Below are positions 205-10,473 of a stretch of 34,430 bases of DNA, piece after piece. Numbering within the stretch: the first letter of the stretch is position 1; every line of letters starts with the position of its first letter. Under the pieces are notes generated by a model. The model saw only the letters and a list, made by a program, of their open reading frames with translations. It was not told where the DNA came from and ran no database searches. The stretch covers positions 1-34,430 of the IMG/VR virus record IMGVR_UViG_3300032242_000420; one strand, written 5' to 3'. A program made the position numbers and the translations under genes. Origin of the DNA: a virus.

Positions 205-477
205 ATGGCAATAAAATACACAGAATGTTTTCATCCAGCATGGCCCAGTGCCTCAGTCTCTTTATGTAGGGATAACAAATATAAATTAGGACACAAAACA
301 GTCTATCAAAGAGATTGTAGATATCACAAAGAAGATCCAACTATCATTGTAAAATGGATGATAAGAAATTTTGGTGAAAGACACCAAGGTTGGGACTTCT
401 CCTTAGCTGGAGGATGTGTTACAATAGAGTTGTGGGATGATAAATTTATAACAATGTATGAAATGTGGCAAATGTAA
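205..477 (+). CDS. Small hypothetical phage protein
   Basis: A 90-residue protein starting one base after the previous stop; its own stop TAA (475-477) overlaps the ATG of the exonuclease gene. This tight packing is typical of a phage operon and is the main support for the call. The protein has several Cys and His residues (C8, C21 and a C-x-x-H near residue 38), but they do not form a clear zinc motif. No transmembrane segment is seen. Not recognised; possibly an early accessory protein co-expressed with the exonuclease. Confidence 0.65.
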   Translation: MAIKYTECFHPAWPSASVSLCRDNKYKLGHKTVYQRDCRYHKEDPTIIVKWMIRNFGERHQGWDFSLAGGCVTIELWDDKFITMYEMWQM

Positions 478-1025
478 TGGCAAATGATATAATGATTGAC
501 TTAGAGACACTTGACACAAGTCCATACTGTGTTATACTAACTATAGGTGCAGTTAGATTTGATCCTAAAGGTAGTGGTGTAGTAGAACGATTAGAATTAC
601 GCCCTACGATTGAAGAACAAACTGAACAATTTGATAGGATAATTGATGACAGTACGATTGAATGGTGGTCAAGACAAAACCCTGCAGCCCTTGAAGAAGC
701 AATGGGGGATGCGGGACGTATCTCATTTAGTGAATGTATGGAAGCCCTTTATAAGTTTTGTTGGAATCGTAGGGCTGTGTGGTCTAATGGGGCTGCATTT
801 GATGTCGTGGCTTGCGAAACCGCATGGCGACAACTTGAAATGCGAATACCGTGGCCATTCTATACCGTACGAGATACTAGAACGTTGTATGAAGTTGCAG
901 GGGTCAAACTAAGTGATGGTGGACATTCAACTAGTCACAAAGCGGTAGAAGATGCAGAACGTCAAGCAATTGTTGTGCAAAAAGCATATCGTAAATTAAT
1001 TAGTGCAGGAGTTATTCCACCGTGA
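477..1025 (+). CDS. dexA: DEDDh 3'-5' exonuclease, T4 DexA-like
   Basis: Predicted 3'-5' exonuclease of the DnaQ superfamily, 182 residues. All four catalytic positions are visible: D8 and E10 in IDLET (ExoI), D109 in GAAFD (ExoII), and H154 with D159 in HKAVED (ExoIII, DEDDh type). The stretch STIEWWSRQNP matches the corresponding STIEWW region of T4 DexA, which acts on single-stranded DNA. A GTG at 465 would add four residues, but the ATG at 477 overlaps the upstream stop as TAATG and is preferred. Its stop overlaps the GTG of the downstream DnaE-like gene, suggesting translational coupling; an exonuclease beside a polymerase-like protein resembles the epsilon/alpha pairing of Pol III. Confidence 0.85.
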   Translation: MANDIMIDLETLDTSPYCVILTIGAVRFDPKGSGVVERLELRPTIEEQTEQFDRIIDDSTIEWWSRQNPAALEEAMGDAGRISFSECMEALYKFCWNRRAVWSNGAAFDVVACETAWRQLEMRIPWPFYTVRDTRTLYEVAGVKLSDGGHSTSHKAVEDAERQAIVVQKAYRKLISAGVIPP

Positions 1026-1606
1026 GAATAGATAGTGATATTGACATTGACTTTGGTTCAAGAGATAGATTGCTTGAACTGATTAATCACACAAGTGCGG
1101 CAATGCGTAATGTCAATCCTATTCGCAAACACGCAACTGGAGTATATGTTACTCCTATACCTTATGACCCAGTCAATGACTTTGCTAGCATTGATTATAC
1201 AGTAGCAGAAAAGCGTGGGTATTTCAAACTAGACTTATTGAATGTTCATGTCTATGAGAACGTCCGTGATGAACAACATCTTAATGAATTGATGGTTGAG
1301 CCTGAATGGAGTAAACTGAAGGATAAGTCTTTCGTTGAGAAACTGATTCACTTGAACAATCAGTTTTATAACTTAGAGAAGATGCCAGAACCTATAGATA
1401 GCATCCCAAGATTAGCAATGTTCTTGGCAGTAATTCGTCCTGGTAAAAAGCATTTGATTGGGAAATCTTGGAGTGAGATTAATAAAACTGTCTGGGATAG
1501 AGGAACTGATGGATACATATTCAAGCGTTCGCATTCTTGTGCTTACGCACAGTTAGTAGTAGTACACATGAACCTCTTATGTGAGCAGGAACACAAAGGC
1601 GTGTGA
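1022..1606 (+). CDS. Miniature DnaE-like (family C polymerase core-like) protein
   Basis: A 194-residue protein that reads like a compressed catalytic core of bacterial DNA polymerase III alpha. Landmarks in the same order as in E. coli DnaE are: DIDIDF at residues 6-11 (counterpart of D401/D403), KHATGVYVTP at 36-45 (KHAGGVVIAP in DnaE), FKLDLL at 68-73 (FDFLGL; third catalytic Asp), AVIRPGK at 136-142 (ALFRPGP), and FKRSHSCAYA at 167-176 (FNKSHSAAYA). The PHP, fingers, tau-binding and OB domains are absent, and full DnaE is about six times longer. The GTG start overlaps the exonuclease stop (GTGA), with GCAGGAG about ten bases upstream. Whether it polymerises is unknown; it could be a regulator, primer-handling factor or decoy. 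The resemblance is seen by eye, not by search. Confidence 0.7.
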   Translation: MRIDSDIDIDFGSRDRLLELINHTSAAMRNVNPIRKHATGVYVTPIPYDPVNDFASIDYTVAEKRGYFKLDLLNVHVYENVRDEQHLNELMVEPEWSKLKDKSFVEKLIHLNNQFYNLEKMPEPIDSIPRLAMFLAVIRPGKKHLIGKSWSEINKTVWDRGTDGYIFKRSHSCAYAQLVVVHMNLLCEQEHKGV

Positions 1607-1619
1607 TTTTTTGAATAGG

Positions 1620-1627
1620 CATAAATA
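1620..1627 (+). promoter_or_regulatory. Late-type promoter motif, HNH gene
   Basis: CATAAATA, six bases before ATG 1633, no Shine-Dalgarno. Similar to T4 late TATAAATA. Confidence 0.6.
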
Positions 1628-1632
1628 ATATT

Positions 1633-2289
1633 ATGCCTGCACCAAAAGACTATATAAAAATTCAATATCCTAGAAAATGTAATCATTGTGATTACATTTC
1701 TAATAATCCACAGATGTGGCATTATCATAATAAAACACATGACCCTATTCCCGACGGACAACTGTGTGATCAAGGGTGCGGACAACCTGCTCTTTTCAGA
1801 AACACTGGCGGAAAATATTCGTGTTGTTCTACTACCTATCAATGTGAGTCATATATTAAAAAACATTCTGATAAAGTGAAACAACAGTGGAGCAGGCCCG
1901 AAGCAATTGAGCGTAAAGAACAAACCAAAGCAATACTATTGAAAACAGCATGTACACCTGAAGCAGTTAATAAAATGAAAGAAACCAAAAGAAAAAAATC
2001 AGGTCTATTAACACCAGAAGATGCTAAAAATTTTAGACACTATGCTAGATCAATACGACAGCGGGCACAGATGTGGGCTACTGATAATGGATATAAATTG
2101 GGGCATCAAACTTACCATGTAGATCATAAGTTAAGCATACTTGATGCGTGGAAGTTAAATCTACCAGCTGAGATTGTAAATCATCCAGCAAATTTACAAG
2201 TGATAGAAGCAAAAAGAAATAGTAGTAAGGGAAGTAATAGTAGTATTACTGTTGAACAGTTATACGAAATGATTAAGGCATTCTCTTGA
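1633..2289 (+). CDS. HNH homing-type endonuclease with N-terminal zinc finger
   Basis: A 218-residue putative HNH endonuclease, probably a free-standing homing enzyme. The C-terminal half carries YHVDHKLSI (H162, D164, H165), HPANLQVI (N187) and NSSKG (N196, K199), the pattern of phage HNH enzymes. The N-terminus has a C2H2-like finger (C16, C19, H30, H36) and further Cys around residues 45-71, likely for DNA binding. The middle is Lys/Arg-rich and helical. The ATG lies exactly six bases after a late-promoter-like CATAAATA and has no Shine-Dalgarno. Its 3' end overlaps the convergent gene by 17 bases. Such genes are usually mobile insertions between host-phage genes. Confidence 0.8.
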   Translation: MPAPKDYIKIQYPRKCNHCDYISNNPQMWHYHNKTHDPIPDGQLCDQGCGQPALFRNTGGKYSCCSTTYQCESYIKKHSDKVKQQWSRPEAIERKEQTKAILLKTACTPEAVNKMKETKRKKSGLLTPEDAKNFRHYARSIRQRAQMWATDNGYKLGHQTYHVDHKLSILDAWKLNLPAEIVNHPANLQVIEAKRNSSKGSNSSITVEQLYEMIKAFS

Positions 2290-2653
2290 CGAGGGTGATG
2301 CTACGGCGTTTGCTTCTACGTTTACTTAATTCATTCATACTACAAGTAGGGCCATGAACCACTACTAGACTTTTATTATTAAAAGTCCTGAGATATGGTT
2401 TAAAGGGTAACCAATCATCCTTTAAGAATAGATTGATGGGTATTAATCTATTACTTTCCCACCACCAAACTTCTCCTAGTTCTAAGAACTTTTCTTTGAT
2501 ATTGCTATCTGCTATAGCACCGTAATCATATATAGTGGTAACCATATCATCACGATTTTGAACAATTCCAACATAATCTTGGTTGGCATATGAACATACT
2601 GTGATGAACGGATGATTTTCTGTCAGTCTTTTGAAAAATTCGTTTTGGATCAT
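2273..2653 (-). CDS. Conserved hypothetical phage protein
   Basis: A 126-residue protein encoded on the minus strand between two plus-strand genes. Its centre contains GEVWWWESNR followed by PINLF and LPFKPY, and it ends in a basic tail (SKRRSKRRSITLVKR). I recall the pattern of W-rich centre plus basic RRS tail from other T4-like environmental phages, where it has no assigned function. The basic tail suggests nucleic acid contact, but this is inference. A GATAAATA motif on the minus strand (2678-2671) lies 18 bases upstream of the ATG, implying late expression. No Shine-Dalgarno is evident. Confidence 0.7.
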   Translation of the reverse strand: MIQNEFFKRLTENHPFITVCSYANQDYVGIVQNRDDMVTTIYDYGAIADSNIKEKFLELGEVWWWESNRLIPINLFLKDDWLPFKPYLRTFNNKSLVVVHGPTCSMNELSKRRSKRRSITLVKRMP

Positions 2654-3540: not shown

Positions 3541-4515
3541 ATGTTTGATATCCTGTCTATATTACCTGGTAAAAAGAAACAAACAAGTTCAGGTTGGACT
3601 AGCTTTAACGCTGTTTGTTGTACCCACTTTGGCCACAGACAGGACAAAAGAATGCGCGGCGGCATCAAGTTTGATGGAAACAACTGGAGTATGCATTGTT
3701 TCAATTGTGGGTTCAAGTGTAATTTTGTACTTGGCCGTTCTATCAGTACTAAAACTCGCAATCTATTAGTATGGTGTGGTGTTGATGACCAGCAAGTTAA
3801 AAGATGGAGTTTAGAAAGTCTACAACAAAAAGACTTGATAGACTTTACTCAGCCAAAGAAACAAAAGATAAAAATCAAGTTCAACGACCACACTCTACCC
3901 GAAGGTGAGATTGTAGATAGTAATAACCCATTACACAAAGTATATGTAGAATATCTGCAACGTAGGAAGATAGATAGTAGTGAATATCCTTTCTTAATCA
4001 CTCCGAACGAGCCTGGCAGAATGAGTAACAGGGTAATCATACCCTACACATATAAGAATAAGATTGTAGGACATACAAGCAGATTCTTAGATAACAAAAT
4101 TCCAAAGTACATCAATGAACAACAGCCTGGTTATGTATTCAATATTGATATGCAAAAATCAGAATGGAGTGTATGTATTGTAACAGAGGGTATATTTGAT
4201 GCACTAAGTATTGATGGTGTAGCACTGATGCACAATGACATTAGTACTGACCAAGCACTATTGCTTAGTACATTAAACAAGCAACTTATACTAGTTCCAG
4301 ATAGAGATAGTACAGGATTGAGTTTGTGCGATAAAGCATTAGAATTGGGATATAGTGTAAGTCTACCCGATTGGGATGATGATGTAAAAGATGTGAATGA
4401 CGCTGTAGTTAAGTATGGTAAACTACCTACCCTATTAAGTATACTACAATGTGCAACAAATAGTAAAATCAAAATAGAAATGAGAAGGAAGAAAATTGCC
4501 AAAGCAGGAAACTAA
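3541..4515 (+). CDS. 61: DNA primase, T4 gp61-like (DnaG-type)
   Basis: DnaG-type primase of 324 residues that would make RNA primers for lagging-strand synthesis with the adjacent helicase. The N-terminal zinc-binding region has C26/C27, H29, C53, C56 and C60. The TOPRIM domain is visible as TEGIFDA (E216), PDRDSTG (D254, D256) and DWDDDVKDVND (about 278-287). Length is close to the T4 protein. A sigma70-like promoter (TTGCTT-17-TACAAT) ends seven bases before the ATG and there is no Shine-Dalgarno, so the mRNA may start at the ATG. The helicase gene begins inside its 3' end, as expected for a primosome pair. Confidence 0.9.
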   Translation: MFDILSILPGKKKQTSSGWTSFNAVCCTHFGHRQDKRMRGGIKFDGNNWSMHCFNCGFKCNFVLGRSISTKTRNLLVWCGVDDQQVKRWSLESLQQKDLIDFTQPKKQKIKIKFNDHTLPEGEIVDSNNPLHKVYVEYLQRRKIDSSEYPFLITPNEPGRMSNRVIIPYTYKNKIVGHTSRFLDNKIPKYINEQQPGYVFNIDMQKSEWSVCIVTEGIFDALSIDGVALMHNDISTDQALLLSTLNKQLILVPDRDSTGLSLCDKALELGYSVSLPDWDDDVKDVNDAVVKYGKLPTLLSILQCATNSKIKIEMRRKKIAKAGN

Positions 4516-5938
4516 AAAGCAACTAGATTATACCACTGATGTTCAGAAATTATTTCTGAGGATGATGGTTACAAATGCAGAGTTGTATACCCGTGTTATG
4601 AATATTATGAACAGCGAAAACTTTGAGCGTTCATTGCGCCCAGTAGCGGAATTGTTCAAAACTCATACTGACAAGTATAGAGTATTGCCAGATACAACAC
4701 AAATCAAAGCAACAACTGGTATTGATATTGAACCTATTCCAGAATTGAACGATGGTCATTATGAATGGTTCTTTGATGAATTTGAATCATTTACTAAACG
4801 ACAAGAACTAGAACGTGCGATTCTTAAAGCAGCAGACTTGCTTGAGAAGGGTGAGTTTGAGCCAGTTGAATCACTAATCAAAAAAGCAGTACAGATTAGT
4901 TTACAGAAAGACATGGGCACAGATTACTTTGCTGATCCTAAAGGTCGTATCAACAAATACTTTAACAGTGGTGGACAAGTATCTACTGGCTGGCCCCAGA
5001 TGGATAAACTATTGTATGGTGGATTCAGTCGCGGTGAATTGAATATCTTTGCAGGTGGTAGTGGTTCAGGTAAGTCATTGGTGATGATGAACATTGCACT
5101 AAGTTGGTTGCAGATGGGATTGAGTGGTGCATACATCACATTAGAATTGAGTGAAGAATTAACAAGTTTGCGTACTGATGCGATGTTGACCATGATGGGT
5201 ACAAAAGCGATTCGCAAAGACATTGACACAACTGAACTTAGAGTTAAGATGGCAGGTAAGAAGTCTGGTAAGTATCGTGTTAAAGCATTGCCAGCACAAA
5301 GTAATGTAAACGATATTCGTGCTTACTTGAAAGAAGTACAGATACAGACTGGTATTAAGATTGACTTTGTTATGGTCGATTACTTAGACTTGGTTATGCC
5401 AGTAAGTGTTAAAGTCAATCCAAACGACCAGTTTATCAAAGACAAGTATGTTGCTGAGGAATTGCGTAATCTTGCGAAGGAACTTGGAATACTATTAGTA
5501 ACAGCAAGTCAATTGAATCGTACTGCGGTTGACGAGATTGAGTTTGACCATAGTCATATTGCAGGTGGTATCAGTAAGATTAACACAGCAGATAATGTGT
5601 TTGGTATCTTCACAAGTCGTAGTATGCGTGAGCGTGGTAAGTATCAAATTCAATGTATGAAAAGTCGTAGTTCAACAGGTGTAGGTCAAAAGATTGACTT
5701 AGAATATGATGTTGAGACTATGCGTATCAGCGATCCAGGCATTGACGGTGAACAGAGTTATACTCCAAAGCCAAGCGCAAATGACATTATGAGTACATTA
5801 AAGCCACAGTCTACTTTAAACGATTATACTGTTGACCAAACTACAGGTGAAATAACAATCGAACCATTGACTAAGACTGTATATGCTGATGTTCAAGGTT
5901 CAAAGTTGAAGTCTTTATTAAACTCATTGAAAAAGTAA
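4496..5938 (+). CDS. 41: Replicative DNA helicase, T4 gp41-like (DnaB family)
   Basis: A 480-residue hexameric DnaB-type helicase that unwinds DNA 5'-3' at the fork. The Walker A motif GGSGSGKS lies at residues 187-194 and the Walker B strand FVMVDYLDLV near residue 295. A helicase loop with TASQLNR follows near 341, then an arginine-bearing KSRSS segment near 388. The N-terminal helical domain (residues 10-135) matches the gp41 arrangement. The longest frame starts with TTG 4496, 20 bases inside the primase gene, with AGAAGGAAG just upstream; the next Met is residue 23. I keep the TTG because of the ribosome site, but the start is not certain. It would form the primosome with the upstream primase. 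Confidence 0.92.
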   Translation: MPKQETKKQLDYTTDVQKLFLRMMVTNAELYTRVMNIMNSENFERSLRPVAELFKTHTDKYRVLPDTTQIKATTGIDIEPIPELNDGHYEWFFDEFESFTKRQELERAILKAADLLEKGEFEPVESLIKKAVQISLQKDMGTDYFADPKGRINKYFNSGGQVSTGWPQMDKLLYGGFSRGELNIFAGGSGSGKSLVMMNIALSWLQMGLSGAYITLELSEELTSLRTDAMLTMMGTKAIRKDIDTTELRVKMAGKKSGKYRVKALPAQSNVNDIRAYLKEVQIQTGIKIDFVMVDYLDLVMPVSVKVNPNDQFIKDKYVAEELRNLAKELGILLVTASQLNRTAVDEIEFDHSHIAGGISKINTADNVFGIFTSRSMRERGKYQIQCMKSRSSTGVGQKIDLEYDVETMRISDPGIDGEQSYTPKPSANDIMSTLKPQSTLNDYTVDQTTGEITIEPLTKTVYADVQGSKLKSLLNSLKK

Positions 5939-9759: not shown

Positions 9760-10473
9760 ATGAAACTAAACGAATTAAACAACAATCGCCGTGCTTACTC
9801 TACTAAAGTTCTAAAAGAACAGTACGAGATGCCATTCAATGTAGATAACATGAGTATGTCATCTACAAGAACCATGCTTACAAAAGTGCGCGGTTTGATG
9901 AACGAGTCAAAGCAATCACATGACTATCACAATAGTCAAGCATCAAGTTCTTATATGAAGTTGGTGTTTATGGAGCAAGCACTTAGTGACCATTACAATG
10001 AACTACGTTCACTTCCACAGCCAAGAATCATGGTTGAGAACGAAGAAGTTGAGAAGTCACAAGTTGTTCTAGCAGCACAAGACATGGTAGACCAAGTACA
10101 AAAGATGCTTGAAGATGTTGGCCAAATGCAAGTTAAAGAATTACCTGCATTAGTATCAAGCATTGAAAGTGAAATTGGTGTTAACGAAAGTCAAACATAC
10201 AATGACGCAGTTTCAGCACAGTTAGATACATTATCTGCTGCATTGAAAGAATCATCAACTGCATTGAAGAATGCATTGAATGGTTTAACTGGACAAGCAG
10301 TAGACGCAGCATTTGATGCTGGTGCAGACTTGGGAGCAGAAGCAGGTGTTGATGCAGGCATGGATGCTGGTGCTGAAATGGGTGCAGAAGAACCCGCAGG
10401 AGAAGAAATTCCTCCCCCAACCGAAGAACCTGAAATGGCCCCATCAGGTGGCGTTGGTAGAGCAAAGAGATAA
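9760..10473 (+). CDS. Conserved virion-associated protein with acidic, Gly/Ala-rich C-terminus
   Basis: A 237-residue protein starting MKLNELNNNRRAYSTKVLKEQ. Residues 30-180 are helical with MLTKVRGLMNES and YMKLVFMEQAL, patterns I recall from proteins of marine T4-like phages annotated as virion structural. The C-terminal 50 residues are Gly/Ala/Asp/Glu-rich (DAGADLGAEAG repeats) then Pro-rich, ending GRAKR. A GATAAATA motif 28 bases upstream and a weak TGGA ribosome site support late expression. The next gene starts one base after its stop. A scaffold-like or core role is plausible from the acidic helical character, but not shown. Confidence 0.7.
   Translation: MKLNELNNNRRAYSTKVLKEQYEMPFNVDNMSMSSTRTMLTKVRGLMNESKQSHDYHNSQASSSYMKLVFMEQALSDHYNELRSLPQPRIMVENEEVEKSQVVLAAQDMVDQVQKMLEDVGQMQVKELPALVSSIESEIGVNESQTYNDAVSAQLDTLSAALKESSTALKNALNGLTGQAVDAAFDAGADLGAEAGVDAGMDAGAEMGAEEPAGEEIPPPTEEPEMAPSGGVGRAKR

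Follow-up and report, generated by a model that had tools for sequence, protein, structure and literature searches.

The window analysed here (34,430 nt of viral DNA, positions 1 to 34,430 of the IMG/VR record IMGVR_UViG_3300032242_000420) encodes a 194-residue protein that exhibits, in the order typical of the bacterial replicase α subunit DnaE, the sequence landmarks of a family C polymerase, and its gene overlaps that of an exonuclease. This raises the question whether so short a protein is a stripped-down, perhaps the smallest, family C polymerase, as the original prediction proposed, or a palm domain reused for another purpose, such as a decoy or an inhibitor of the host Pol III. Both genes were found at the positions given in that prediction (477-1025 and 1022-1606, sharing the four bases GTGA), and the phage that carries the DnaE-like protein has a phage-type primase and a DnaB-like helicase. 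The relevant part of the window is organized as follows:

205 to 477, forward strand: ORF of unknown function, 90 aa; its stop overlaps the start of the exonuclease gene (TAATG)
477 to 1025, forward strand: DEDDh exonuclease, Rv2179c-like/DexA-type, 182 aa; ATG start, 4-base overlap with the polymerase gene
1022 to 1606, forward strand: C-terminal half of a split minimal Pol III α, 194 aa; GTG start, phrog_11778, with the metal-binding residues and reduced fingers
1579 to 2274, forward strand: insertion of ~696 bp comprising the greater part of an HNH-like ORF, in place of the last polymerase residues
1633 to 2289, forward strand: HNH-like ORF, most of it inside the inserted segment
2275 to 2329, forward strand: former 3' end of the polymerase gene, left as a relic that reads HSLDEGDATAFASTFT up to the stop
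2273 to 2653, reverse strand: convergent small ORF, phrog_11637
3541 to 4515, forward strand: DNA primase, phrog_47
4496 to 5938, forward strand: DnaB-like replicative helicase, phrog_19, PF03796

The search of PHROGs assigned the 194-aa protein to phrog_11778 ("DNA polymerase", E-value 5e-55), and tblastn reported 90 phage records, nearly all of them large myoviruses, including RaK2-like and PA5oct/Paride-like phages, Atu_ph07 and Phosso; the closest cultured relatives are Paride, Atu_ph07 and Phosso, with 46-47% identity, while 438 stretches in IMG/VR match the protein. The relationship to DnaE is detectable with a family profile, but not by single-sequence searches, as Pfam and phmmer against the PDB with the window protein as the only query returned nothing useful. 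A profile of 28 family members compared with the profile of 81 DnaE sequences gave a score of 42.2, as opposed to a maximum of 23.1 for 200 column-shuffled controls and 15.1 for the reversed profile, which rules out a chance match of motifs. In single-target comparisons, residues 34-142 align to E. coli DnaE 508-642 (E-value 5.6e-5) and residues 152-179 to 739-768 (E-value 2.3e-4), in collinear order. Against all PDB sequences the family profile matched Pol III α chains alone, with weak scores (E-value 0.26-0.54), and the Pfam Pol III fingers domain PF17657 was matched by 9 of the 28 members (best E-value 3.3e-5).

The structure prediction agrees with the profile comparison. AlphaFold2 returned a confident model (pLDDT 91.9, pTM 0.78), for which the top 12 Foldseek matches in the PDB are all Pol III α (best E-value 5.9e-4), and the named proteins among the first 21 matches in a viral library are DNA polymerases or DnaE. 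With TM-scores of 0.28-0.39 over the query, which are modest, there is no tight superposition, in keeping with a half taken by itself and with changed domain angles; nonetheless, Foldseek recognized the palm/fingers fold of family C in the 194-aa protein. On the strength of profiles and predicted fold, we conclude that the product of 1022-1606 is a true relative of DnaE.

The alignment places the active-site motifs as follows (all on the forward strand):

1037 to 1054: DIDIDF, residues 6-11; D6, D8 and D10 correspond to D401, D403 and D405 of E. coli DnaE
1127 to 1141: KHATG, residues 36-40; matches KHAGG 510-514 of E. coli DnaE
1223 to 1234: FKLD, residues 68-71; K69 and D71 correspond to K553 and D555 of E. 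coli DnaE
1436 to 1447: RPGK, residues 139-142; matches RPGP 639-642 of E. coli DnaE
1529 to 1549: SHSCAYA, residues 170-176; H171 is the counterpart of H760, the steric gate of E. coli DnaE

All five motifs thus follow in the order originally read from the sequence, starting at residues 6, 36, 68, 139 and 170. The three catalytic aspartates of E. coli DnaE (D401, D403 and D555; PMC8485763) all have counterparts, as had been claimed, but these are D6, D8 and D71 and not D8, D10 and D71. The three aspartates are retained in all 35 relatives compared, and D6, D8, D10, K69, D71, R139, P140, K142 and H171 are invariant in both the 28- and the 35-member alignment, which include members with identity down to ~30%. 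H171 is located in a predicted helix (169-191). Among close relatives the dN/dS ratio is ~0.08, hence the protein is under purifying selection. In the RefSeq record of Atu_ph07 (NC_042013, gp74; L082:9986-10561) the annotated start of the homolog, at locus position 10067, lies past DIDIDF, while an in-frame ATG at position 9986 yields the full protein with the catalytic pair.

The motifs are conserved, but the segments between them are drastically shortened. The stretch from DFDVDF to KHAGG, which comprises the thumb, spans ~104 residues in E. coli DnaE and ~24 here, and that from RPGP to KSHS ~115 and ~27 residues, respectively, so that ~90 residues of the fingers are missing. In DnaE the latter stretch includes arginines thought to contact the triphosphate; with this segment lost, catalytic competence is not assured. 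With 194 residues and such motif spacing there is no space for the PHP domain, the thumb or the C-terminal clamp- and τ-binding regions.

The 194-aa protein also lacks an essential part of the palm itself. A GRGS loop ahead of the catalytic aspartates is required in palms of family C, and this nucleotide-binding motif is absent from the protein, which begins five residues before D6 (M-R-I-D-S-DIDIDF). In the relatives the GRGS part of the palm was found in a second protein of ~171-177 aa (phrog_11127), encoded elsewhere in the genome; we refer to it as the N-half and to the 194-aa protein and its homologs as the C-half. The N-half matches PF07733, aligns to E. coli DnaE 319-393, exhibits a GRGS motif invariant across the alignments, and its structure model has Pol III α as the nearest fold. 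The last residues of the N-half correspond to the FLN of E. coli FLNPERVSMPDFDVDF, just where the C-half takes over; accordingly, the polypeptide was split within the loop that precedes the catalytic aspartates, apparently without losing any sequence. The idea of a stripped-down polymerase therefore stands as far as the family C-type palm and fingers with three aspartates are concerned; since the GRGS part resides in another protein, the C-half is not a self-contained polymerase.

The N-half was not found within the 34-kb window. Among the relatives, both halves are encoded together in seven contigs (G002, G004, G006, G009, G017, G018 and G019) as well as in Slickus01 and SCTP-2, and they co-occur in every near-complete relative examined. 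Long contigs of the nearest relatives of the window contain the N-half along with the C-half, with the exception of the fragment G005; the fragments G020 and G021 lack the C-half. The counts of N-half and C-half genes in cultured phages agree nearly exactly by host genus (Escherichia 34/34, Pseudomonas 11/11, Erwinia 8/8, Salmonella 8/8), and the remaining matches to the N-half, from Streptomyces, Enterococcus and Bacteroides phages, are presumably full-length host-type enzymes. The halves are separated by ~44-54 kb in G002, G006 and G009 and by a greater distance in others; no adjacent or fused halves were found among the fetched loci and genomes, the nearest pair being ~4 kb apart (G017). 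In Slickus01 (L116, OQ508957), whose genome of 141,644 bp is well below the 200-kb threshold of jumbo phages, the distance is ~11 kb.

Analysis of the genomic neighborhood revealed that the C-half gene is typically followed by a convergent small ORF, a structural-type gene, the primase and the DnaB-like helicase; the convergent ORF is present 3' of the gene in most jumbo-phage relatives, and in XacN1 and RAS14 the genes downstream are different. An AAA+ clamp-loader gene is located ~1 kb downstream of the N-half in several genomes. Such neighbors place both halves in replisome gene clusters. A family B polymerase is encoded in 16 of the 17 related genomes or contigs, including each of the nine listed above with both halves. 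In Atu_ph07 it is annotated as two genes (gp276/gp277, L085:31878-34847), according to which both polymerases of this phage may be split.

The exonuclease encoded upstream matches the Rv2179c-like family PF16473 over residues 3-169 (E-value 3.3e-32) and possesses the DEDDh residues D8, E10, D109, H154 and D159, in agreement with its description as a complete DEDDh exonuclease. E10, D109, H154 and D159 are invariant among 69 relatives, nothing before residue 10 being listed, possibly as an effect of the alignment edge. An overlap of four bases (RTGA) with the C-half gene occurs in 62 of the 76 loci in which an exonuclease was detected (a count that includes the window twice, also as L001), and in the other 14 the exonuclease gene lies ~200-920 bp upstream. 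The overlap from which translational coupling was proposed is therefore real, but it is limited to the clade of the window, where the exonuclease adjoins or is near the C-half in five long contigs; examination of Atu_ph07, Paride, CBB, Phosso, RaK2, Slickus01, SCTP-2 and two other distant contigs did not reveal an exonuclease of this kind. At four loci (L002, L011, L014 and L016) the exonuclease is ~60-65% identical to that of the window while the C-half is ~89% identical, which suggests replacement of the exonuclease or recombination at the gene junction.

The opposite end of the C-half gene has been altered by an insertion. An ORF that we call HNH-like from the appearance of its sequence, with no Pfam match, starts 30 nt past the polymerase stop in the window, L002, L049 and L079. 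Alignment with uninterrupted relatives delimits a clean insertion of ~696 bp, downstream of which the displaced 3' end of the gene persists as the relic listed above. The HNH-like ORF fills nearly all of the insertion and leaves no room for a ribozyme, which rules out an intron. In the carriers of this ORF the codons around the active-site SH..AYA motif have been recoded, which would fit a homing target at this stretch or next to it.

Altogether, the 194-aa protein probably represents the C-terminal half of a minimal polymerase of family C (DnaE-type) made of two subunits, most likely an accessory enzyme of the phage replisome for short-gap or primer extension beside the family B replicase. 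The N-half, encoded near the clamp-loader gene, would supply the GRGS loop that grips the triphosphate, the C-half would contribute the metal-binding D6, D8 and D71 as well as the lysine K69 and, on the fingers helix, H171 as the steric gate, and the two would assemble into one Pol β-like active site. The enzyme, if active, should be distributive, because the thumb, the PHP domain, the clamp-binding tail and the large fingers insert are missing, and it could serve at the phage fork in the filling of short gaps or in primer extension. A function of the C-half independent of the N-half, as a small polymerase or nucleotidyl transferase, is very unlikely: the protein does fold confidently by itself in the prediction and has all three metal ligands in one chain, but the triphosphate-binding GRGS part is supplied by the N-half, where it is invariant, and both proteins are encoded in all near-complete relatives examined. 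A non-catalytic role for the two halves, as a replisome scaffold or as a decoy for the host clamp, τ or Pol III, with the active site as a relic, would account for the loss of the thumb and of part of the fingers in phages that own a family B replicase. Yet a decoy has no need of D6, D8, D10, K69, D71 and H171, all invariant among members with identity down to ~30%, nor of the likewise invariant GRGS; together with the low dN/dS ratio and the strict co-occurrence of the halves this disfavors the decoy and inhibitor functions considered in the original prediction, and we regard a role of this kind as unlikely.

The two-subunit polymerase may, in the clade of the window, have acquired a further component. 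The exonuclease co-translated with the C-half could act there as a detachable proofreader or as a trimmer of primers or flaps, and a complex reminiscent of the Pol III core, with α-N, α-C and an ε-like exonuclease, would be an extension of the reading preferred above and not its competitor. We put it forward tentatively: the position of the exonuclease directly upstream, the prevailing RTGA overlap and the proximity of the two genes in the long clade contigs speak for such a complex, but overlapping genes are common in phages, the divergence of the putative partners is not coupled (~60% against ~89% identity), and the other phage groups with both halves have no such exonuclease, so that the trio could at most be a clade-specific addition. 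Somewhat less likely still, the three genes might constitute a core in which a thumbless two-protein family C site, deprived of most of the fingers, is combined with its own proofreader and acts beside the family B replicase in the manner of Pol α or Pol β, by extending primers or filling gaps.

If active, the two halves would rank with the smallest polymerases of family C and have a naturally split active site; they would reveal which parts of DnaE catalysis requires, and why a second polymerase, of the bacterial type, is kept by a phage that already has a replicase of family B. A split minimal Pol III α made of two remotely encoded proteins, along with a family B polymerase, has been described in the group 2.2 jumbo phages (Iyer et al. 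2021, PMC7824862); in the earlier papers on CBB and Atu_ph07 the small α-like N-half was noticed (CBB_328 and gp316, respectively) and its partner was not recognized. The window protein is thus half of a two-protein polymerase that is already on record, and a new metagenomic member of the family published in 2021 from large T4-like phages, and the notion of the smallest family C polymerase is correct in part, but not new. Our search of the literature found no published experiment or polymerase assay on either half. Many database records label the C-half as a hypothetical or membrane protein, and with such labels and the truncated start of Atu_ph07 gp74 the split polymerase is easily missed. 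To the description by Iyer et al. we add the exact split point, the loss of the thumb and of the fingers segment, the exonuclease overlap (RTGA) confined to one clade, the presence of both halves in a 141-kb phage, and the HNH insertion in the 3' end.

Compared with known systems, the window C-half belongs to the same family (phrog_11778) as that of the group 2.2 jumbo phages, and its relatives share with them the N-half partner, the family B polymerase and the remote placement of the two genes; what sets the window member apart from those is the DEDDh exonuclease gene that overlaps it and the HNH insertion at its 3' end, and while Iyer et al. 2021 treat jumbo phages, Slickus01 shows that both halves also occur in a smaller genome. 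The exonuclease resembles the T4 DexA and Rv2179c-like enzymes in its match to PF16473 over nearly the whole length and in its DEDDh residues, but differs from them in the overlap of its gene with that of a polymerase half and in the putative partnership of the products. With bacterial DnaE the C-half shares the collinear motifs, the three catalytic aspartates, the equivalents of K553 and H760 and the nearest fold, whereas the palm is divided over two proteins that dispense with the PHP domain, the thumb, the large fingers insert and the C-terminal clamp and τ regions.
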